A stretch of DNA of 64,000 nucleotides from Pseudomonas sp. 7SR1 (lineage in GTDB: Bacteria; Pseudomonadota; Gammaproteobacteria; Pseudomonadales; Pseudomonadaceae): positions 3,611,001 to 3,675,000 of the forward strand of contig NZ_LT707064.1 of the NCBI RefSeq assembly GCF_900156465.1. Reading direction: 5' to 3'. The notes beneath the pieces are model-generated. The model had not been told where the DNA came from. It saw only the letters and a list, made by a program, of their open reading frames with translations, and did no database searches. The position numbers and the translations under genes were made by a program. Below are positions 23,911 through 62,000 of this stretch, in pieces (the stretch's first letter is position 1; every line of letters begins with the position of its first letter).

Positions 23911-23926
23911 CTGTACGTGCATACAG
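23911..23926 (-). promoter_or_regulatory. LexA (SOS) box
   Basis: CTGTACGTGCATACAG fits CTG-N10-CAG with the preferred TA-rich flanks (CTGTA...TACAG). It lies just upstream of the DUF1654-endA start. A near-identical box stands before the prophage DUF1654 gene. Confidence 0.85.
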
Positions 23927-41087: not shown

Positions 41088-41164
41088 CGGGGCGTAGCGC
41101 AGTCCGGTAGCGCACTAGCATGGGGTGCTAGGGGTCGAGTGTTCGAATCACTCCGTCCCGACCA
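41088..41164 (+). tRNA. tRNA-Pro (GGG)
   Basis: 77 nt including the encoded CCA. Acceptor CGGGGCG pairs with CGTCCCG, anticodon stem CTAGC with GCTAG around ATGGGGT (anticodon GGG), and T stem GAGTG with CACTC around TTCGAAT. The prophage integrase gene begins to its right, so the 3' half is the likely attachment site. Confidence 0.97.
41132..41164 (+). other. Probable attL core at the 3' end of tRNA-Pro
   Basis: The integrase gene lies immediately beyond the tRNA 3' end and reads toward it, the standard layout of an attL within a tRNA gene. The exact core cannot be fixed because attR lies outside the window; the anticodon-to-CCA segment is the expected identity block. Confidence 0.45.
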
Positions 41165-41180
41165 TATTTTTCAATGACTT

Positions 41181-41208
41181 AGCCCAACTCTAGCCAGTTG
41201 GGCTTTTT
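41181..41208 (+). terminator. Intrinsic terminator after tRNA-Pro
   Basis: AGCCCAACT pairs with AGTTGGGCT around CTAGCC and is followed by TTTTT. It ends the tRNA transcript and separates it from the convergent integrase gene. Confidence 0.88.
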
Positions 41209-41233
41209 CATTGGTGGGGAGTTTTTCGGGACT

Positions 41234-42412
41234 TCATCCTGTTTTCCTCTTCAAGATTGTCAGCACCGGTCCCCTCGAGTCGGTTGCTGATACCATATTC
41301 GCAGCTTCGATCAGATGCCCGAGCTCGGCGCCCGAGTAGTGACTGGTGATGCTGCCGTTCTTGTGTCCCAGCAAAGCCTTCCGGTCTTCCTGTGTGACAC
41401 CTGCCGCCCGAAGGCGACGGCCAAACGTGTGTTTCAAGTCGTGCACCCTGATGGATGCATACCCAGGGTGAGCGGGGCGAAGGTTTTCCTCCTGCCAGAG
41501 TTTCGCCGCTCTCACCCGTGCTTTCTTCCAGGCCGAGTCGTTCATGCGGTGCATCGCGGTACCGTTGTAGGGGAAAACCCACTCCTTGCTCAGGCCGCGC
41601 TGCTTATCAATGATCGACTTCGCCACGTTGTTGAGCACAACCAACCGCTCGTCGCCATTCTTCACACCTGACCGCTCGTTTCTCCCGCCGAAGTCGGACG
41701 GTATCAGGAACACGCTGGTGCCAAGCTCCGGCACCGGTATTTCCCAGTCCCACCTCAACTTGCAAACCTCCTGCTCGCGGCAACCGGTGTTCACCTTGAA
41801 CAGGGCCATCGTTTGCAGGTGTGCCGGCAACTCCCCGAAAAGGATCGACTGCTCTTCCCATGTCATGGGGTAGGGCTCGCGAACCTTTTTCTTCAGGTCC
41901 AACCTGGTCAGCATCGGAACCGAGTCCAGCCAGGGCCTGCGCTCCTCATCCCTCCATTTCCTCACGCAAAGCGAAAGAACCCGTATAACCCGTTCGATTG
42001 ATATGTTGATCGTCCTGGGCGCTGCCGGCTTCAGTTGCTTGCCACACGGCAGGACCATCCCCTTCAAGCGATCCCTCACGAACGGCTCAAGCGCCTGGTC
42101 ATCGATGTGCGTCAATGGCAGATCCTTGAGGTAGGGGTGCAATTGCTTCAGGTGATGCGCGGTCAACTTGATCGACGGCTGGTCCTTGTTGTCGATCAGG
42201 AACTTCGTTGCCGCCTCATCCCAGGTGCGCATCCGGCGCACGCCATATACCTTTTGCTGCCGAAGCTGCTCCAGGCGGTGAATCAGGTACTGCTCGGCTT
42301 CTTGCCGGTCACTAGTGCCAGTGCTTTCTCGAAGTCGCTCACCTCGGAAAACTTTGTCGATTTGCCAGATTCCACCTTTCTGATAGAGGCCGGAGATCGC
42401 TTTTCTCGCCAT
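41234..42412 (-). CDS. int: Prophage tyrosine integrase
   Basis: 392-aa site-specific recombinase. Catalytic residues are visible: Arg in FKVNTGCREQEVCKLRW, Lys in the beta turn region, HDLKHTFGRRLRAAG (His box with Lys in place of the common Arg), LLGHKNGSITSHYSGAE with His and the nucleophile Tyr. The N-terminus has an arm-binding part (GLYQKGGIWQIDKVFRG) and a SAM-like core-binding domain. AGGAGGT precedes the ATG at 42412. Its first 130 bp overlap the upstream excisionase-like gene in another frame. Confidence 0.95.
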   Translation of the reverse strand: MARKAISGLYQKGGIWQIDKVFRGERLRESTGTSDRQEAEQYLIHRLEQLRQQKVYGVRRMRTWDEAATKFLIDNKDQPSIKLTAHHLKQLHPYLKDLPLTHIDDQALEPFVRDRLKGMVLPCGKQLKPAAPRTINISIERVIRVLSLCVRKWRDEERRPWLDSVPMLTRLDLKKKVREPYPMTWEEQSILFGELPAHLQTMALFKVNTGCREQEVCKLRWDWEIPVPELGTSVFLIPSDFGGRNERSGVKNGDERLVVLNNVAKSIIDKQRGLSKEWVFPYNGTAMHRMNDSAWKKARVRAAKLWQEENLRPAHPGYASIRVHDLKHTFGRRLRAAGVTQEDRKALLGHKNGSITSHYSGAELGHLIEAANMVSATDSRGPVLTILKRKTG

Positions 42413-44915: not shown

Positions 44916-45167
44916 CTATCGAGATTTGACCCAGCGCCGAACATACAGCTCGCAGCCGCTCGTCAAGCACACGCCGTTAGCCATGCCGAGATGCGTTTTC
45001 GGCGTGCCGCAACCGCAGTGGCATTTCTTTTTCCGGCCGGGGCGCTTCGGGCGCACCTCCCTGTATCGGATCTGTTCGGGTAGGCCGCCGATCTGGCCCC
45101 AGGCAGCAGTGCCGCCACGCATTGCAGCAGAGCGGGCCGAAGGGGATAGGCCGTTGAGGTCAATCAT
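44916..45167 (-). CDS. Small phage zinc-knuckle protein
   Basis: 83 aa from the ATG at 45167, overlapping the upstream gene by 8 bp. The C-terminal half has KKKCHCGCGTPKTHL and GVCLTSGCELYVRRW, a Cys/His set able to bind zinc. Family not recognised. Confidence 0.6.
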   Translation of the reverse strand: MIDLNGLSPSARSAAMRGGTAAWGQIGGLPEQIRYREVRPKRPGRKKKCHCGCGTPKTHLGMANGVCLTSGCELYVRRWVKSR

Positions 45168-46233
45168 GGCCTTTCTTCTCCAGGCTCTGCACCGCCGGGT
45201 GCGCGGCGTTCCACTGCTCGAAGGCTTCCTGGGTGGTGGCCGCCGTGATCTTCTCGTCGCAGGTGTAGCAGTGCGCCACGCCGCCAGCGGCACCGATGTC
45301 GCGGTGGCCTTGCTTGCAGGGGTTCATTTGCCAGTCGTCATCCTTCGCGGCTGGTGCGGATTGGTGGGCGAGGTAAACCCGCGCCTCACGCATGAGGTTG
45401 GACGAAAAGCCGGATGTCTGAGAGCCAGCATTCGCTAGTTTCAGCACCAACTCCCGCACCTTAGTCAGTTCGGCTTGCAGCATAGCCAGCTCCCCTTCAT
45501 GCTTGGCTGTCTGGCCGTCCTTGTACTGTGAGGCGATGTCCTGGCGACGCAGCTTGTCGTTGGCGGTGCTCAGGCACTCCAGCGCCTTGGTCAGCACGGC
45601 TTGCAGGTCAGTCAGTTCATCGGCTTGATGCCGGATCACATCAGCTGCGCACATTGCCGCATAGCCAAGTTCATTGCTTGCTGAAATGGCTTCATCGTAG
45701 GCGGAGCCTATTTGCGACAACCGCTCCACCTCAGCCTCTGCTGCACAACGTTTATCCATGTAAGCCGCATACTCGTCACCAAGCTTTATCTCAGCATCTT
45801 TGGTCATGAATTCAAGTTGAAGACTCTCAACCTCGGCCTGTAGCCGGGATCGATCAGCAAGCAGCTGATCATTTTTCTTGTCCATCTCATGTAGTTCCGC
45901 CTGTAGCCGGGTGACGTGGGCGCGGTCTACCAGTTCAACTACCTTGAAAGCTGGTTCCCATCCATCCAAGACCTTGGACAGCAAAGGGCGGTCAAGGCGT
46001 ACGTTTCCTGTCGGCGTGGTCCGTGTCACCTGATACCCCAGCACTTCCACCTCCCCGCCAGCAGGCGGCACAGGGTCAGCCAGGGCGGCGCGCAGCTCCA
46101 AGAGCAAGACCGCTTCGTTGTTCCGTGGCATCGTTTCGCCCGGGTAGGACGGGTCGAAATTAGCGCGAAGGTCAAGATGCGATTCGATTTTGTCTGTCAG
46201 CTCCCGCGACAGGGTTACGGTTTTATTCGTCAT
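45160..46233 (-). CDS. Coiled-coil phage protein with Lar-like zinc ribbon
   Basis: 357 aa. The centre (about residues 100-270) is heptad-rich coiled coil (HVTRLQAELHEMDKKNDQLL, EGELAMLQAELTKVRELVLK). The C-terminus has NPCKQGHRDIG, AHCYTCDEKI and EAFEQWNAAH, the spacing of Lar-type restriction-alleviation zinc ribbons (C-x-C ... C-x2-C ... WN). A role in countering host restriction is inferred only from that motif. Confidence 0.6.
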   Translation of the reverse strand: MTNKTVTLSRELTDKIESHLDLRANFDPSYPGETMPRNNEAVLLLELRAALADPVPPAGGEVEVLGYQVTRTTPTGNVRLDRPLLSKVLDGWEPAFKVVELVDRAHVTRLQAELHEMDKKNDQLLADRSRLQAEVESLQLEFMTKDAEIKLGDEYAAYMDKRCAAEAEVERLSQIGSAYDEAISASNELGYAAMCAADVIRHQADELTDLQAVLTKALECLSTANDKLRRQDIASQYKDGQTAKHEGELAMLQAELTKVRELVLKLANAGSQTSGFSSNLMREARVYLAHQSAPAAKDDDWQMNPCKQGHRDIGAAGGVAHCYTCDEKITAATTQEAFEQWNAAHPAVQSLEKKGHD

Positions 46234-52321: not shown

Positions 52322-52885
52322 TCACTTGATGCGAATGGAACTGTCGCCGCGCTCGAGGTGCGCCCAAGTCGGCTCCGGCAGAAGTTCATGCTCAGCGTCT
52401 TCGCCGGCGGCAATGCGCTTGCGGACTGCCTCGTTGTGCTCGCGGATCTCCTTGAGCTTGGCGGCAATGGCTTTTTTGTCGGGCGAGATGCTCGATTTCA
52501 CAGACGTCAGTTCGTCTGGCACCGCATCTTCGTTGTCAACGATCACACGCTCGCTACCCATCGCCAGAGTGATGGTGAACAGCGGCCGTTTGATCGACTT
52601 GATGTTGGCGGCTTCCATGTTGCGGCGCAGGTAGTCGCTGATCTGCGACACGCTGTTGGACTTGATCCGCTTGAGCTCGGTCAGACGCTCGATTTCGTTG
52701 TCGATCGCTGCCACGTCGCTTTCGATGTTTCGACGCAGCATGACGATGTTGTCGGCCTTCTCGTTGAAGTCGCCGGCGATCTCGTCCATGGCGTGCTGTA
52801 TGGCCTCTTTTAGGCCCTCATCATCGGTGTCGGCCATGGCCTGCAGTTCTGCCAGTTTTCCGGTGAGCGCGTAGAGCTGAGTCAT
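52322..52885 (-). CDS. Siphovirus Gp157-family protein
   Basis: 187 aa: N-terminal helical region (LYALTGKLAELQAMADTDDE) then a coiled coil (MLRRNIESDVAAIDNEIERL) and a C-terminal beta part (RPLFTITLAMGSERVIVDNE). This arrangement is that of Sipho_Gp157, a family found beside phage recombination genes and linked in streptococcal phages to phage resistance. It overlaps the upstream recombination gene at ATGA. Confidence 0.82.
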   Translation of the reverse strand: MTQLYALTGKLAELQAMADTDDEGLKEAIQHAMDEIAGDFNEKADNIVMLRRNIESDVAAIDNEIERLTELKRIKSNSVSQISDYLRRNMEAANIKSIKRPLFTITLAMGSERVIVDNEDAVPDELTSVKSSISPDKKAIAAKLKEIREHNEAVRKRIAAGEDAEHELLPEPTWAHLERGDSSIRIK

Positions 52886-53616
52886 GCTGTTGCTTCCTGG
52901 GTGAATTTAGGGGAGAGGTCGCGCAGCTCTTTGGCGATGCGCTTGATGGCGTTCTCGTCGTTGCGGGCGGTCAGTCGGCGCACGGCGTGGTCGTGCAGCT
53001 TCTTGAGCTCCTGCAGCGACTGGGCGCCTTGCATGGTTTCGACGACTGACTTGATGTAGTCCAGGCGCTCCTGTTTCTGCCGCTCCTCCTCGGCAACCCT
53101 GTCTTCAGCTTTGGAAATGGCGACCTCGTCGCGTACGGCATCGACGTAGGCGGCATCGTCGAACAGCCCCATATGGATGTCTGCCGAGAACCCGAGCGGT
53201 TGCAGACACTTGCCGATGGCGTCTGTAAGCGACTTTTTCGAAACCTCCCAGTCGGTGAGGATTTTCCCTTGCTGGAGGTAAATGAACGGTGTGTGTCCGT
53301 ACTGCTCGACGGTGCATTTCTGCCCATCCTTGCCCAGGTACCACAGCTGAATTTTCAGAGTGTGCAACTTAGCGTTTATGCGTGGAGCATCCGGCCATTC
53401 CTTGGTTGGCGCCTGAAGCGGAGCTCCTTCATCAAAGCGTTCTTCAAGTACCGCCCAGCCCCAACCTTCACCGCACGGCCCGAACAGTTCGGTCGCCTTG
53501 CGCATCAGGTAGGTTGGTTTGATGGCGGTCCCTTTGAATCCGCCCATGCCAGTGAAGTTTTTCGTTGCGCTTGGATCGGTTACGTCGACCTGGTCCCAAA
53601 TCCGGGTATTGGACAT
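52882..53616 (-). CDS. Putative phage ssDNA-annealing (Rad52-like) recombination protein
   Basis: 244 aa from the ATG at 53616. FTGMGGFKGTAIKPTYLMRK, ELFGPCGEGWGWAVLEERFD and SKKSLTDAIGKCLQPLGFSA resemble phage proteins with a Rad52-type annealing fold. Position before Gp157 and in the leftward early operon supports a recombination role, like the red genes of lambda. The C-terminus is charged and helical. Rad52-like rather than ERF or RecT is a judgement from motifs. Confidence 0.6.
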   Translation of the reverse strand: MSNTRIWDQVDVTDPSATKNFTGMGGFKGTAIKPTYLMRKATELFGPCGEGWGWAVLEERFDEGAPLQAPTKEWPDAPRINAKLHTLKIQLWYLGKDGQKCTVEQYGHTPFIYLQQGKILTDWEVSKKSLTDAIGKCLQPLGFSADIHMGLFDDAAYVDAVRDEVAISKAEDRVAEEERQKQERLDYIKSVVETMQGAQSLQELKKLHDHAVRRLTARNDENAIKRIAKELRDLSPKFTQEATA

Positions 53617-53658
53617 GGCTGTTCTCCGCGCCACCGGAGAGGGGCGCTGTGAAGTAGG

Positions 53659-56862: not shown

Positions 56863-56906
56863 AATTTAGCCTCAAGCTAAAGTGACGTCAATAGCGTTGA
56901 GCTAAA
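56863..56906 (-). promoter_or_regulatory. Leftward early promoter (pL) with operators OL1 and OL2
   Basis: On the minus strand -35 TTGACG (56891-56886), a 17-bp spacer and -10 TAAATT (56868-56863). OL1, TTTAGCCTCAAGCTAAA at 56865-56881, covers the spacer and -10. OL2, AATAGCGTTGAGCTAAA at 56890-56906, covers the upstream edge of -35. Centres are 25 bp apart. The same operator consensus occurs beside the repressor gene. Confidence 0.75.
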
Positions 56907-56972
56907 TTATTTTCGCCGGGCGATAAACAGCTTGCTGAAGCGCCTTGCCAGTGGCCGCGGCTTTTCGCTTCG

Positions 56973-56989
56973 TTTAGCACTGAGCTATG
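56973..56989 (+). promoter_or_regulatory. Repressor operator overlapping the DUF1654 promoter
   Basis: TTTAGCACTGAGCTATG matches TTTAGC-N5-GCTAAA at 10 of 12 half-site bases and overlaps a good -10 hexamer TATGAT (56986-56991) that reads toward the DUF1654 gene; the matching -35 is weak. Confidence 0.6.
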
Positions 56990-57001: not shown

Positions 57002-57017
57002 CTGTACGCATATACAG
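57002..57017 (+). promoter_or_regulatory. LexA (SOS) box before the prophage DUF1654 gene
   Basis: CTGTACGCATATACAG fits CTG-N10-CAG and differs from the chromosomal DUF1654 box at only a few central bases. It lies 15 bp upstream of the start codon, within the predicted transcript start region. Confidence 0.85.
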
Positions 57018-57032
57018 TATTGGAGATAACAA

Positions 57033-57401
57033 ATGGCAGCAGTACTAGAAGACAACTTAATGACCGCGTCCCCCGAATTGACCGGACTGGAGCGCCTGGG
57101 CCTGCGCGTATCAGCGATGATCAACTCACCGATAGCGCAGTTGGGGAGGAGGGTGCTGATTCACCGCCTGGACTCCGACAGCGATCAGGATTGGGAGCGG
57201 ATCATGGAGTTGCTTTCGGAAACCGACGGCCTGGACATGACGTTCTGTGATGACGGGTCGGTGATCCTGCAGTGGGGGGCTGCTACGGATGACGATCGGG
57301 TGATTGAGAGGGAGGTGGACCTGGATCTTGTCCGACACGAGAGGGGGTGCCTTTTTAGCTGTGATGGGCCTTTAGCTGACCCACCACCTGAGCCAATCTA
57401 A
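57033..57401 (+). CDS. Prophage DUF1654-family protein
   Basis: 122 aa. The core LERLGLRVSAMINSPIAQLG and DWERIMELLSETDGLDMTFC is shared with the chromosomal protein at 23643-23891; a C-terminal extension (VDLDLVRHERGCLFSC) is extra. TTGGAG precedes the ATG. It is the only rightward gene between OL and the repressor, preceded by both a repressor operator and a LexA box, so it should respond to DNA damage and be silent in a quiet lysogen. It converges with the GHKL gene, overlapping by 4 bp. Confidence 0.82.
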   Translation: MAAVLEDNLMTASPELTGLERLGLRVSAMINSPIAQLGRRVLIHRLDSDSDQDWERIMELLSETDGLDMTFCDDGSVILQWGAATDDDRVIEREVDLDLVRHERGCLFSCDGPLADPPPEPI

Positions 57402-59413
57402 GCTTCCGTCGGTTCGGCTACAGTGCTACGAGTGGTGAGGCCTGCCAATAGCTCATCTTTAGTGACTGATGAAAGGTCAGCTCGCTGAGTTTTCAGATTT
57501 TCTAATAAGTAATCATTAGTAAGTTCAAATTCATCAAAAATTCTGGGCCAGGTTTTGATATAGGTCTTGATCTTGGAAGTAGAGGTTACCAAGCCTGGCT
57601 CACCATGAACCTTAGAGGTATCTAGGCGATTTTGGATTCCAAACGCTTCACTTGAAATGCTACGGCCAATGAGAAGTAACTCGAACCGAGTTAAATCACT
57701 GTTAAAAGCAGGGTATCTACTCAAAATTGAAGCATACGTGTCCAGTTGTTGTAGGTGTTTGTCATTCAAGGCCACGCCGGGGCGCTTGATTTCTACTATG
57801 ACGCAACGGAAATATTTTCTGCCGCTTGGGTCGATCTGAGGCTGTCTTCGGACAAGCAGCAAGTCTACCTGCTTTTTCGCTCCTTCAATTTCTACCCCCT
57901 CAGCGAGGTCGCCCACATCTACCCTCTCAATCTCTTTAATGGTTGCGCGAAGATTTCGAGTGGTTTCCGTAAAGCTCGCCTCTTCAGCCCCTAGGATTTC
58001 GTACGAGGCTCCAAATAACCATGTGTTACTTTCGATTACGGCCTGAAGGTCAGGGGTCTCGCGAACTGTGGCATAATGAGTGTTCATGATTTCCTTAATC
58101 TGGGAAATCGCCAACTCTCGATTTTGCAGGATTTCAATGGTGTTTATGATGTTGTCGAGCTTTGTTTTTTTGAGCTGGTCGGCAAGTTTTGTCATGGCGG
58201 CGGCATCTAAATTTAGAATGCTTTCTAAGATTTCAAATATGCCGCTATTTTCGTTCGAAACGGAAAGTCTGTCTAATAATCTTATGATTAGTCGGCGCTG
58301 TTTTTTATTATTTCCTACTAGTAAGCTTGGTTCGCGAATTAATACGGCCTTAACGATGTCTTTTACATGTGACAAGCGCCATTTTGATTCTTGAGGATCC
58401 AGATTGGGATATTCTGGGAAGTCGCCGTCCTCTTCAAACTGGGATACGTGCTTTTCAGCTTGTTTGATAAGGAATTCAGCATACATGCGCTTCGCAAATA
58501 CGCCAATTTCACTCTCTAGGTCCTTGAACTGACTGCTTACAAGGAATGCCCCAATTGGTTCGTGAATAGATTCGCTATCGTCGCTGTATCGGTCGAATAG
58601 CGCGGACCTCACATAGATTGATGAGTAATACCCTCGTTTACGATTGAGGCTACTGTGGAATTTATAAAGAATTTTACTATTGGTGTTGATTAGGTGAATA
58701 AATGACTTTTCAGAGCCAGGTTTCTCTTTCCAGTGAAGGAGCTTCACCTCAAATAAATCGCCCTTAGAATTCACCTTGACTTCATATAAGTCATGGTCTT
58801 GCGGTATTACAATGGCGCCATTCACGCGCAAAGACTTATGTGGCATCAAAGCAAGTTGTGCGCCAAAAATCCGCCTAAATTCAGAAATAATAAAATCTTG
58901 ATTGGGGAAATTGTTTTTGAAGTCAGAAAGGACGACGCATGTGCCGGAATCGATCCCGTCGAGAAAGGAGTGTTGGTCAGCAGTTGGAATAGTGCGGCCT
59001 TCTATATCGCTAAGATTGCTGCTTGAAACTCTAATAATGGCGTTGTCGCCCTCGTACCTTGTAAACCATGTTGCTGTATTGCAAATTTTATGAAATGCAA
59101 GTCGGCCGCGCCCATGGGAGCCATGCGTGTCATAAGAGTCTTTTTTTAATGAGTCGTTAAAGCGTCGAAAGTTATCTTGTGGTGATTTAAAATTAATACC
59201 TTTGCCGTTGTCTAGGATGGTTAACAGCTCGGTTCCGTCTATGTCATTGCTTTCAATTGAAATATTGACAAATGAAGCGCCTGCGTCGAACCCATTCCAT
59301 ACGAGCTCGGCTAATGCTTGTACTGGTTCTACTGTTTTGAAGTGCTTTAAAATACCGCTGTGTGTAATCGTGTTGGAGCCAGAGAAGTCCTGGGAAATAA
59401 AGTTGGCTGACAA
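57398..59413 (-). CDS. GHKL ATPase fused to a Shedu-like PD-(D/E)XK nuclease, candidate exclusion/defence protein
   Basis: Numbering here is from the ATG at 59458 (686 aa). N-terminal Hsp90/MutL-type ATPase: N box ELVWNGFDAGA (Glu51, Asn55, Asp58), Asp box ILDNGKGI (83-87) and glycine box GSHGRGRLAF (113-122). The C-terminal nuclease fold has KQVDLLLV (Asp532), VIVEIKRPG (Glu556, Lys558) and HLQQLDTY (Gln571, Tyr575), the DUF4263/Shedu arrangement, preceded by ESNTWLFGASYEIL. The middle is helical. A TTG at 59413 with GGGAGA 6 nt upstream is chosen; the ATG overlaps the repressor end by 17 bp without a site. AT-rich compared with flanking genes, it occupies the lambda rexAB position. Defence function is inferred. 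Confidence 0.75.
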   Translation of the reverse strand: MSANFISQDFSGSNTITHSGILKHFKTVEPVQALAELVWNGFDAGASFVNISIESNDIDGTELLTILDNGKGINFKSPQDNFRRFNDSLKKDSYDTHGSHGRGRLAFHKICNTATWFTRYEGDNAIIRVSSSNLSDIEGRTIPTADQHSFLDGIDSGTCVVLSDFKNNFPNQDFIISEFRRIFGAQLALMPHKSLRVNGAIVIPQDHDLYEVKVNSKGDLFEVKLLHWKEKPGSEKSFIHLINTNSKILYKFHSSLNRKRGYYSSIYVRSALFDRYSDDSESIHEPIGAFLVSSQFKDLESEIGVFAKRMYAEFLIKQAEKHVSQFEEDGDFPEYPNLDPQESKWRLSHVKDIVKAVLIREPSLLVGNNKKQRRLIIRLLDRLSVSNENSGIFEILESILNLDAAAMTKLADQLKKTKLDNIINTIEILQNRELAISQIKEIMNTHYATVRETPDLQAVIESNTWLFGASYEILGAEEASFTETTRNLRATIKEIERVDVGDLAEGVEIEGAKKQVDLLLVRRQPQIDPSGRKYFRCVIVEIKRPGVALNDKHLQQLDTYASILSRYPAFNSDLTRFELLLIGRSISSEAFGIQNRLDTSKVHGEPGLVTSTSKIKTYIKTWPRIFDEFELTNDYLLENLKTQRADLSSVTKDELLAGLTTRSTVAEPTEA

Positions 59414-59441
59414 AGAAGATCTCCCTATAAAATTTGTCGAG

Positions 59442-60245
59442 TTAAACCTTTCTAGCATTCCACACGAGCAGTACTTTGGCGTGTATTGCTACGTCATCGA
59501 AGCGGGCGGGCTGCCTGTCATAGATCTTGTTATCTGAAATTAACCAGACATGGTCCTCGTCTTTCCGCTGCAGGCGTTTGATCAGTAGATCACCATGCCA
59601 GGTGAGCACGTACACCCCCTCACCCTGGTAGTCGTTTACGCCTCGGTCAACGATCACCGGATCTTTGTCGTTGATCGTCCCCTCCATGCTCTGACCCCAT
59701 CCAGTAATCATCGCCAGGGCCTGGGCAGTGGTATAGGTCACGCCTTTCTCTCTCAGAACTTCTTCGCGAATCACAACATTGCGGATGACTTCGCTGTACT
59801 CGGCGGGCACCTGGCCGTGGCCCATGGCAGCTCTTACGTCGTACTGAGGGATAGAAATATCGCCATCAGCTGGGACGGCGATTTGATTGCTGGAAGAGGT
59901 GGCAGGCTGAACTTCCTCGGCTGCAGCCAACAACCGCTGCCGCGTCTCCTCTGGGATTCCCTTGCCGCTCTTCGCCAGCATCTGCTTGACCAGGTCGGCT
60001 GCTGACGCCGGACCGGGGTCGACCTCTTTCGCATCGTCCGGCAGTGAGTCGAACCAGCCACGCGGCAGGCCCTCTAGCACTTCAATGCGCCGAGCAACGT
60101 CATCGCCCAAGTTCTTGGCCGTCTTGTCGGAAAGAATCTGGCTCAAATGCGCAGCCGACATTTCCCAGCGCTCGGCACAGGCCCCTTTTCTCTGGCTGCC
60201 AATCAGCTTTACCAGGTTGTGCTTGCGAATCTCATAGATATCCAT
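59442..60245 (-). CDS. LexA-like prophage repressor (CI type, S24 peptidase)
   Basis: 267 aa from the ATG at 60245. The N-terminal helix-turn-helix is seen in KGACAERWEMSAAHLSQILS. The C-terminal S24 domain has RAAMGHGQV (cleavage region), ITGWGQSMEGTINDKDP with the catalytic Ser, and DLLIKRLQRK with the catalytic Lys. RecA-assisted self-cleavage would induce the prophage. Three TTTAGC-N5-GCTAAA operators lie just upstream, facing the Cro-like gene, and others lie at pL. Its 3' end leads straight into the GHKL-nuclease gene. Confidence 0.92.
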   Translation of the reverse strand: MDIYEIRKHNLVKLIGSQRKGACAERWEMSAAHLSQILSDKTAKNLGDDVARRIEVLEGLPRGWFDSLPDDAKEVDPGPASAADLVKQMLAKSGKGIPEETRQRLLAAAEEVQPATSSSNQIAVPADGDISIPQYDVRAAMGHGQVPAEYSEVIRNVVIREEVLREKGVTYTTAQALAMITGWGQSMEGTINDKDPVIVDRGVNDYQGEGVYVLTWHGDLLIKRLQRKDEDHVWLISDNKIYDRQPARFDDVAIHAKVLLVWNARKV

Positions 60246-60264
60246 GCGGCGAAGAATGCCAGTG

Positions 60265-60332
60265 TTTAGCTGCCTGCTAAATGTGCGCAAAGCTAAATTT
60301 TCCTTGCTTGAACATTAGCCATAAGCTAAATT
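60265..60332 (+). promoter_or_regulatory. OR operators and rightward promoter (pR)
   Basis: Three sites between repressor and cro: TTTAGCTGCCTGCTAAA (60265-60281, perfect), ATGTGCGCAAAGCTAAA (60281-60297, one good half) and ATTAGCCATAAGCTAAA (60314-60330). A -10 TAAATT (60327-60332) with a weak -35 TTGCTT (60304-60309), 17 bp apart, overlaps the last site, mirroring pL. The repressor promoter (pRM) could not be assigned. Confidence 0.75.
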
Positions 60333-60358: not shown

Positions 60359-60595
60359 ATGAATGATCACCTCCGTGATTGGTTGGGCAGGGCCACGAAT
60401 GAGCGTCGGCAGCAGGTCGCAGCCGACGCCAAGACCACTGTGGGCCATCTGTGGCAGCTCGCAGGTGGTCACCGGAAGGCCTCTACCGAGCTTGCCGAGC
60501 GACTTCAGGACGCCAGTGCCGGTGAGATCACTATCGCCGGTCTGCGTCCCGACCTCATCTCATTCGCCCGCAAGGCGCTGAAAGGCGCCGCGTAA
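60359..60595 (+). CDS. Cro-like regulator
   Basis: 78 aa from the ATG at 60359 (AAGGAGA 7 nt upstream). A helix-turn-helix is visible in RQQVAADAKTTVGHLWQLAG with a YdaS/Cro-like start (HLRDWLGRATNERR). It faces the repressor across OR, the place of cro, and should favour the lytic programme by binding the same operators. Confidence 0.82.
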   Translation: MNDHLRDWLGRATNERRQQVAADAKTTVGHLWQLAGGHRKASTELAERLQDASAGEITIAGLRPDLISFARKALKGAA

Positions 60596-61057: not shown

Positions 61058-61123
61058 CCCAGAGGGCCTCTGCCAAATTCGAGACGAAAAAAAGCCGGGA
61101 TTGCGGCCCGGCTCTCTTAAACA
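61027..61123. promoter_or_regulatory. Structured intergenic block: repeats, minus-strand terminator and boxA-like motif
   Basis: GAGGGCCTCTG occurs twice (61027-61037, 61062-61072), and GGGCCTCTGG can pair with CCCAGAGGGCC (61058-61068). Next, AGCCGGG-N6/7-CCCGGCT (61093-61113) is followed on the minus strand by a T-run, forming a leftward terminator. Directly after it on the plus strand lies CTCTTAAACA (61114-61123), one base off the boxA core. Confidence 0.5.
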
Positions 61124-61139
61124 CGTTGTGGAGCAAATC

Positions 61140-62000
61140 ATGCACCAAACAAACCAAACGATCAATACCCCGGCCAATGTCGCGACACGTTTCGCCGGAT
61201 CTAAAAACGTGTCGCGGATAAAACCCGTTACGCCATTTGATTTCCATGGCTTCCCCGTTCGCGTAATCGACGAGGGAAACGGCGAGCCATGGTTCATTGC
61301 CAAAGACATCGCTGAAGCCCTGGGTTATGCCAACACTTCGAAGGCGATCAACGTCCACTGCAAAGCGGTGAACACCTGCCATACCGAAATGGGAGGTCAG
61401 GTACGAGCGGTCCAGATCATTCCGGAGCGCGACCTTTATCGACTGGTGATGAAATCGAAGCTGCCAGCCGCCGAGCAGTTTGAGGAATGGGTGGTTGCCC
61501 AGGTCCTGCCGAGCATCCGTAAGACAGGTGGATTTTCTGTTCAGCCAACCAACAACGCCAAGATCGTGGGCGAACTGGCGATCCTTGAGTGCTTCGACCG
61601 CCTGTTGAAGCCGGCACCGTCGAGCAAAATGATGATGCTCGCCAAGATCGCCGCCAATAACGGTCTCGATGCCAAGTTTCTCCCTGGCTACGCCGTCGAT
61701 GGTGCGCCCGATGCCGCCGGCGGATCCTCCATGCCCACCAAATCGGCCACGGCCTTGCTGAAGGACAACGGTATTCGCTGCTCGCCGTCGGGCTTCAATC
61801 GCTCCCTGGCTGCTCGTGGCTTTCTCCAGCAGCTCAAACGCAAGAATTCCAAGGGCGAAATGGTCGACTTCTGGTCCGTGACTGAAAAGGGCCTCCAGTA
61901 CGGCAAGAACCTCACCAGCCCTCAATGCCCATGCGAGACGCAGCCTCACTGGTACGTCGATCGCTTCCTTGAATTGGTCGCTTTGGTCGGGAAGTCTTGA
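61140..62000 (+). CDS. BRO-type phage antirepressor
   Basis: 286 aa from the ATG at 61140 (GGAG 7 nt upstream). The N-terminal BRO domain is clear: FDFHGFPVRVIDEGNGEPWF, DIAEALGYANTSKAINVHCK, IIPERDLYRLVMKSKLPAAE, then FEEWVVAQVLPSIRKTGGFS. The C-terminal half is a winged-helix-like domain (MPTKSATALLKDNGIRCSPS, FWSVTEKGLQYGKN). Such proteins in temperate phages act against repressors or alter host regulation. Confidence 0.85.
   Translation: MHQTNQTINTPANVATRFAGSKNVSRIKPVTPFDFHGFPVRVIDEGNGEPWFIAKDIAEALGYANTSKAINVHCKAVNTCHTEMGGQVRAVQIIPERDLYRLVMKSKLPAAEQFEEWVVAQVLPSIRKTGGFSVQPTNNAKIVGELAILECFDRLLKPAPSSKMMMLAKIAANNGLDAKFLPGYAVDGAPDAAGGSSMPTKSATALLKDNGIRCSPSGFNRSLAARGFLQQLKRKNSKGEMVDFWSVTEKGLQYGKNLTSPQCPCETQPHWYVDRFLELVALVGKS

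Follow-up and report, generated by a model that had tools for sequence, protein, structure and literature searches.

What is a gene that joins a GHKL ATPase to a nuclease doing directly behind the repressor of a prophage? Such a gene lies in a 64,000-nucleotide (nt) stretch of Pseudomonas sp. 7SR1 (contig NZ_LT707064.1, positions 3,611,001 to 3,675,000), referred to here as the window, whose coordinates are used throughout. It is likely to encode a Shedu nuclease of type I-D (GHKL-regulated) that the prophage supplies; made in the lysogen, the enzyme would protect it against other phages. An anti-phage enzyme type validated only recently would thus extend to temperate phages, and one branch of these GHKL-Shedu proteins appears to be a long-standing resident behind phage repressors.

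Domain architecture of the GHKL-Shedu protein

The N-terminal half is a GHKL ATPase with intact ATP-binding motifs. Residues 46-161 match PF13589 (HATPase_c_3; expectation value (E) 2.5e-17), and the fold of residues 22-332 matches those of Hsp90, TRAP1 and MORC2. The core of the domain lies at 58859..59323 on the minus strand (residues 46-200 of a frame of 686 amino acids (aa)) and is followed by an S5-like (transducer) domain. In an alignment of 89 rows, in which the query stands twice, D58, D83, G85, G87, G113, G116 and G118 are invariant, and E51 and N55 are kept in 88 rows.

The C-terminal part is a probable Shedu-type PD-(D/E)xK nuclease, as judged from profile-profile comparison and fold alignment. 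This region (57464..58096, minus strand, residues 455-665) carries E476, D532, E556-x-K558, Q571 and Y575, all six residues being invariant in 89/89 rows. Comparison to Shedu at the family level (hhalign) gives E 2.3e-7. In the fold alignment of the C-terminal model (Foldseek VIA rows), Shedu structures take the top four places among the 50 entries listed, and BspD6I and FokI folds are also found among the best rows.

The combination of a GHKL ATPase N-terminus and a PD-(D/E)xK DUF4263 C-terminus in one gene is shared with VcSduA of V. cholerae VSP-II, reported in 2025 as an anti-phage type I-D Shedu (PMC12137116). As told in that account, the class is marked by an enzymatic N-terminal domain, which in the present protein is the GHKL domain, and the VcSduA variants E27A and K557A lose protection, so that ATPase and nuclease residues are both needed. 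Unlike the present gene, VcSduA is described there on a genomic island and not behind a prophage repressor. The architecture had been predicted in 2008 as paraMORC3, with GHKL, S5 and restriction-endonuclease-fold domains and an E-D-ExK signature, a subset of the nuclease-bearing members standing alone (Iyer et al., PMC2292703). The present protein likewise has the intact ATP-binding motifs, the S5-like domain and a C-terminal restriction-endonuclease fold with E-D-ExK. The 2008 paper is a prediction only, and in it the word ‘prophage’ is absent and ‘phage’ occurs once. With the classical SduA of B. cereus and E. coli (PDB 8ti8, 8ti9, 8ps4, 8ps5) the protein shares the nuclease fold, whereas their N-terminal regulatory part differs and is replaced here by the GHKL ATPase.

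Several results weigh against the Shedu assignment. The DUF4263 models of Pfam (E up to 0.1) and PADLOC (E up to 1) give no match to this protein itself, which is why the link to Shedu needs family-level evidence. Among 32 relatives, the PADLOC SduA model PDLC00401 matches 13 (E up to 1, best 6.6e-5), the type II restriction enzyme model PDLC03419 matches 8 with a better best E of 2.4e-7, Pfam HSDR_N_2 matches 19 (best 0.0015) and Pfam SduA_C (PF14082) matches just one (E 0.047). The C-terminal structure model is of moderate quality (mean predicted local distance difference test score 72.6), and a plain Foldseek search with it returns nothing below 1e-3; of the 50 rows listed, the first is MspJI and none is Shedu. 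The spacing from the ATPase glutamate to the nuclease lysine is 507 residues here versus 530 in VcSduA, the latter taken from published residue numbers (PMC12137116); it ranges from 501 to 519 in all alignment rows but one (620), so the VcSduA value falls outside. As to orthology to VcSduA, a search with a distant relative as query has no V. cholerae name among the best 120 of 860 matches.

An initial annotation, made from the letters of the window, had described a single AT-rich gene joining an intact GHKL ATPase to a nuclease, and the GC content (0.435 versus 0.59 in the remaining prophage within the window), the PF13589 match and motifs kept in 88-89 of 89 rows agree with it. Its suggested comparison of residues 40-200 to HATPase_c_3 yielded the match given above, its Hsp90/MORC-like reading of the N-terminal half accords with the fold match, its D-ExK-Q-Y pattern recurs as D532, E556, K558, Q571 and Y575, and structure prediction, which it had proposed as a check for a PD-(D/E)XK fold, placed Shedu first among the VIA rows. 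The likeness to DUF4263 holds at the level of profile-profile comparison and fold alignment but not for the DUF4263 models run on the protein itself. Its view that the fusion was uncharacterized has to be given up, as paraMORC3 (PMC2292703) and VcSduA (PMC12137116) precede it.

A rex-like position in a lambda-like prophage

By its gene content and attachment repeats, the element that carries the gene is a 54.6-kb lambda-like prophage at tRNA-Pro. The left attachment repeat (41117..41211, plus strand) overlaps tRNA-Pro(GGG) at 41088-41164, and its second copy lies 54.6 kb away at 95597-95691, past the window end (96 columns, 93.75% identical). An integrase gene (41234..42412, minus strand; phrog_1 integrase, E 4.5e-41) adjoins the tRNA gene. 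Eight further open reading frames (ORFs) were scanned: the seven to the right code for terminase, portal, head, tail and tail-fiber proteins, and ORF 45160-46233 had no match. The identical GHKL-Shedu gene is found in a 54,763-base viral contig (L133), and the gene is single-copy in the 6.09-Mb genome (E up to 1e-3).

The GHKL-Shedu gene directly follows, on the same strand, the gene of an S24-type (CI-like) repressor (59442..60245, minus strand; on ORF 59442-60290, PF00717 at E 5.5e-21 and phrog_4 transcriptional repressor at E 4e-30). The repressor probably starts at ATG 60245, read by eye in a frame open from 60290. The GHKL-Shedu frame itself (57398-59458, minus strand) is uninterrupted over 686 aa, with an upstream ATG present; the true start is probably TTG 59413, because AGGGAG stands 7 nt ahead of it and because the equivalent TTG, 27-28 nt behind the repressor ORF, is the first in-frame start in the nearest viral relatives after the identical contig (L128-L131). 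With this start the gene spans 57398..59413, its product has 671 aa and the gap from the repressor stop is 28 nt, which makes co-expression with the repressor likely. A promoter scan found no site between the two genes and none for the repressor either, which says little as 0.6 was expected by chance.

Both genes, together with a DUF1654 gene (57033..57401, plus strand; PF07867, E 4e-23), are enclosed by two predicted operator clusters. The sequence TTTAGC-N5-GCTAAA, allowing up to 2 mismatches, occurs at 7 sites in the window versus 1.18 expected, a number reached in 0/100 shuffles. Three of these sites form the left cluster (56865..56989; sites 56865, 56890 and 56973), two form the right cluster (60265..60330; sites 60265 and 60314, with a half-site near 60288), and the other two are at 56911 and 32353. 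A candidate PL promoter (56863..56891, minus strand) overlaps the left operators; it is a consensus match only, of a kind found 6 times in the region versus 4.4 expected. Beyond the right operators, a Cro-like regulator (60359..60595, plus strand) matches phrog_35 transcriptional repressor (E 2.8e-7) and phrog_10248 of unknown function (E 8.7e-15); its likely start is ATG 60359, read by eye in an ORF open from 60281.

In lambda, cI and rexAB lie between the two operator clusters, and the present gene shares with rexAB the place behind the repressor, the strand and the flanking operators. Unlike in lambda, this rex-like place is held by an ATPase-nuclease, and no homology to RexA or RexB is found among the Pfam matches of the protein (E up to 0.1). 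The prophage location, the same-strand place directly behind the repressor and the rex-like site between OL and OR, all asserted by the initial annotation, are thus confirmed; of the gene extent that it gave (57398..59458), the open frame stands but the start probably moves to TTG 59413. That temperate phages can carry defense genes in their cI operon is itself known from Tha of phage 80alpha, which also has an adjoining opposite-strand gene, Ith (PMC11087260). In that account Tha is a HEPN RNase with a dedicated antisense inhibitor; DUF1654, in the loci compared here, borders many different cargoes instead. Both the architecture (paraMORC3, VcSduA) and prophage defense from a cI operon (Tha) are therefore already known.

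A clade of GHKL-Shedu genes linked to phage repressors

What is new in this analysis is a clade of GHKL-Shedu genes tied to phage repressors, of which no published description was found in the open-licence literature. Relatives were collected from species-representative genomes (72 loci) and viral contigs (25 loci), some of them partial or split, and upstream repressors were called with a home-made profile seeded by the repressor of this prophage. A clear same-strand repressor-like ORF lies within 1.7 kb upstream at 22 of the 25 viral loci, and within 100 nt at 11. The other three are a contig that begins at the gene (L146), a locus with a weak repressor match (L150) and one with none (L147). 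Among the genome loci, a clear upstream repressor is present at 3/72 (L056-L058, Pseudomonas), with weaker matches at L074, L089 and L101; of these, L089 (E 1e-27, gap 1351) could also be repressor-linked. At several linked loci the gene lies 154-1,610 nt from the repressor, in places with an extra ORF between.

A tree was built from 88 rows of at least 600 aa each, 80 of them different. In it, 24 repressor-linked rows group with L146 in a single clade that has a Shimodaira-Hasegawa-like approximate likelihood ratio test (SH-aLRT) support of 100. The 25 rows of this clade reduce to 20 distinct sequences with 45-100% identity to the query, and every one of the 24 with known upstream DNA stands behind a phage repressor; L152 is a separate repressor-linked case apart from the clade. 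The linkage label changes 3 times on the tree versus 22 in shuffles, with L146, like the weak matches L074, L089 and L101/L150, entered as unlinked; near-copies favor such scores. Within the genus, 23/398 genomes match at E up to 1e-3 but only 10/398 under 1e-50, and in one of the ten the match is split into two pieces. Relatives at L142, L077, L112, L113 and L115 are split over two frames, through decay or sequence errors.

The AT-richness of the gene is shared as well: across 17 repressor-linked loci (the window and the broken L142 included), GC is 0.41-0.45 in the gene versus 0.51-0.59 in the adjoining DNA. Because this low GC is common to all 17, recent capture is not favored as its sole cause.

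The interval between repressor and DUF1654 as a probable place of exchangeable cargo

The DUF1654 gene lies between the GHKL-Shedu gene and the left operators and converges on the former, the 3' ends overlapping by 4 nt. A scan with the DUF1654 protein, which detects close DUF1654 relatives only, gave 37 viral loci (L160-L196). At each of the 37, a repressor-like ORF faces the DUF1654 gene from the other strand at a distance of 141 to 4,683 nt, and the content of the interval, here called the slot, differs among the loci. GHKL-Shedu occupies 2/37 slots, that of this phage and that of L171 (the same contig as L131). Candidate cargo amounts to 99 ORFs of at least 80 aa in 36/37 loci, of which 66 from 30 loci were scanned (E up to 1e-3). 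This set excludes the two GHKL genes and near-copies (L175, L181), as well as several ORFs on the plus strand and most of those that are short or overlap others. The matches include PADLOC models for PtuA-like, Beta/cll, AriA-like and PDC proteins, the SRAP, SNase and HipA-like families and, in another phage, one RexA (E 2.8e-58).

Named phages show the same variety. In PotUPM1, the DUF1654-like gene and the cI gene (164 aa, unmatched in Pfam at E up to 0.01) are just 1 nt apart; the slot of AUS531phi holds a DUF6731 protein and that of phi297 a ParA-like ATPase; Ostro, without annotated DUF1654, has two proteins there, one unknown and the other with a PIN match below threshold. Since contents vary across related loci and named phages alike, the interval seems to take up exchangeable cargo, which makes it, in Pseudomonas phages, a place to seek new defense genes.

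Proposed function and alternatives

The gene would probably be transcribed together with the repressor from the maintenance promoter, as the 28-nt gap suggests. In the protein, the GHKL-plus-transducer half would probably dimerize on ATP to form a clamp; on sensing some feature of invading DNA, this clamp would license the C-terminal PD-(D/E)xK domain to cut that DNA. The fold and the active-site residues come from this analysis, and we infer clamp, sensing and cutting from MORC/MutL and VcSduA. The lysogen would thereby be shielded from unrelated phages beyond the reach of the repressor, as by RexAB for lambda, and on induction the loss of the repressor would halt new synthesis. This raises a testable question, namely how a prophage can host an enzyme that cuts and probably senses DNA and yet not destroy its own genome as this replicates on induction. 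Two leftward genes of the prophage are of note here, at 52322-52885 (Gam-like end protection, phrog_253, E 1.6e-42; Sipho_Gp157 in Pfam) and at 52882-53634 (exonuclease family, phrog_7838, E 3.1e-82); as a guess, the Gam-like end protection could bear on phage escape from its own nuclease.

The same nuclease could instead act by abortive infection, cutting host and phage DNA once activated and killing the infected lysogen, which is what a rex-like exclusion gene would be expected to do. It stands where rexAB stands in lambda, and another phage has a RexA in the slot; no sequence feature seen here tells an abortive from a direct mode. VcSduA, however, protects cultures at every multiplicity of infection reported, from which its authors infer direct targeting (PMC12137116), and an abortive mode is judged unlikely here.

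A role in the phage's own replication, recombination or repression, with the GHKL-nuclease acting on phage DNA, would accord with a clade that occurs solely behind phage repressors where upstream DNA is known. However, the gene is absent from the same interval in 35/37 related viral loci, the flanking genes of PotUPM1 leave no room for it, so that such phages manage without it, and most relatives among the 72 genome loci lack a repressor-like ORF upstream; this role is very improbable. Also very improbable is that the protein belongs with HgiDII/BbrUII-type restriction enzymes and needs a partner methylase. The NCBIfam BbrUII/HgiDII model does match residues 49-186 (E 1.7e-9), though in the ATPase part only and at 36.8 bits, where the cut-off is 550; among the 32 relatives, type II enzyme models of PADLOC match 8 and 5. 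However, no methylase is found in the ten window ORFs scanned, this gene among them (PHROGs; nine by Pfam; other nearby ORFs unscanned), and a subset of nuclease-bearing paraMORC3 is described as standalone (PMC2292703).

A LexA-like box and the edges of the slot

An exact LexA-like (SOS) box, CTGT-N8-ACAG (CTGTACGCATATACAG; 57002..57017, plus strand), ends 15 nt ahead of the DUF1654 start; we take it to be a LexA site. The motif precedes DUF1654 in 37/37 viral loci, 25 times exactly and 12 times with a single mismatch, and also in 3/3 named phages. Elsewhere in the DUF1654 loci, 4 exact copies occur in 438,736 nt, and 116 at up to one mismatch (0.05 per stretch examined). Because the loci are related, the 37/37 count is conservation and not 37 independent events. 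The conserved box in front suggests that DUF1654 is probably SOS-induced in Pseudomonas temperate phages, and SOS is also expected to bring repressor cleavage. In the open-licence literature, a single paper with DUF1654 came up (PMC13028781). The repressor-linked clade might then be a phage-dedicated branch, switched on with the repressor and shut down at SOS with the help of LexA-box-controlled DUF1654 as a cargo-independent off-component, a proposal that we regard as a long shot. The only other exact CTGT-N8-ACAG of the window (23911-23926) lies outside the prophage.

The stretch 61101-62000 codes for a BRO-N anti-repressor-like protein (PF02498, E 1.7e-22; phrog_130, E 6.3e-50) beside a replication gene.

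From the 37 loci, 23 slot edges were chosen for folding, two of which were too long. Of the 21 folded, 10 have z under -2 versus 100 mononucleotide shuffles, and several more have a GC-rich stem. Hairpins at so many edges weaken the idea of a general antisense switch by which transcripts of DUF1654 would extend into the cargo. At the edge in the window itself there is no hairpin (33 nt, z 0.0), the genes overlapping there, and the L171 edge has a stem (z -1.7). At 57340-57420 this stem, which in L171 lies between DUF1654 and the same cargo, seems to have eroded, and the DUF1654 frame is longer.

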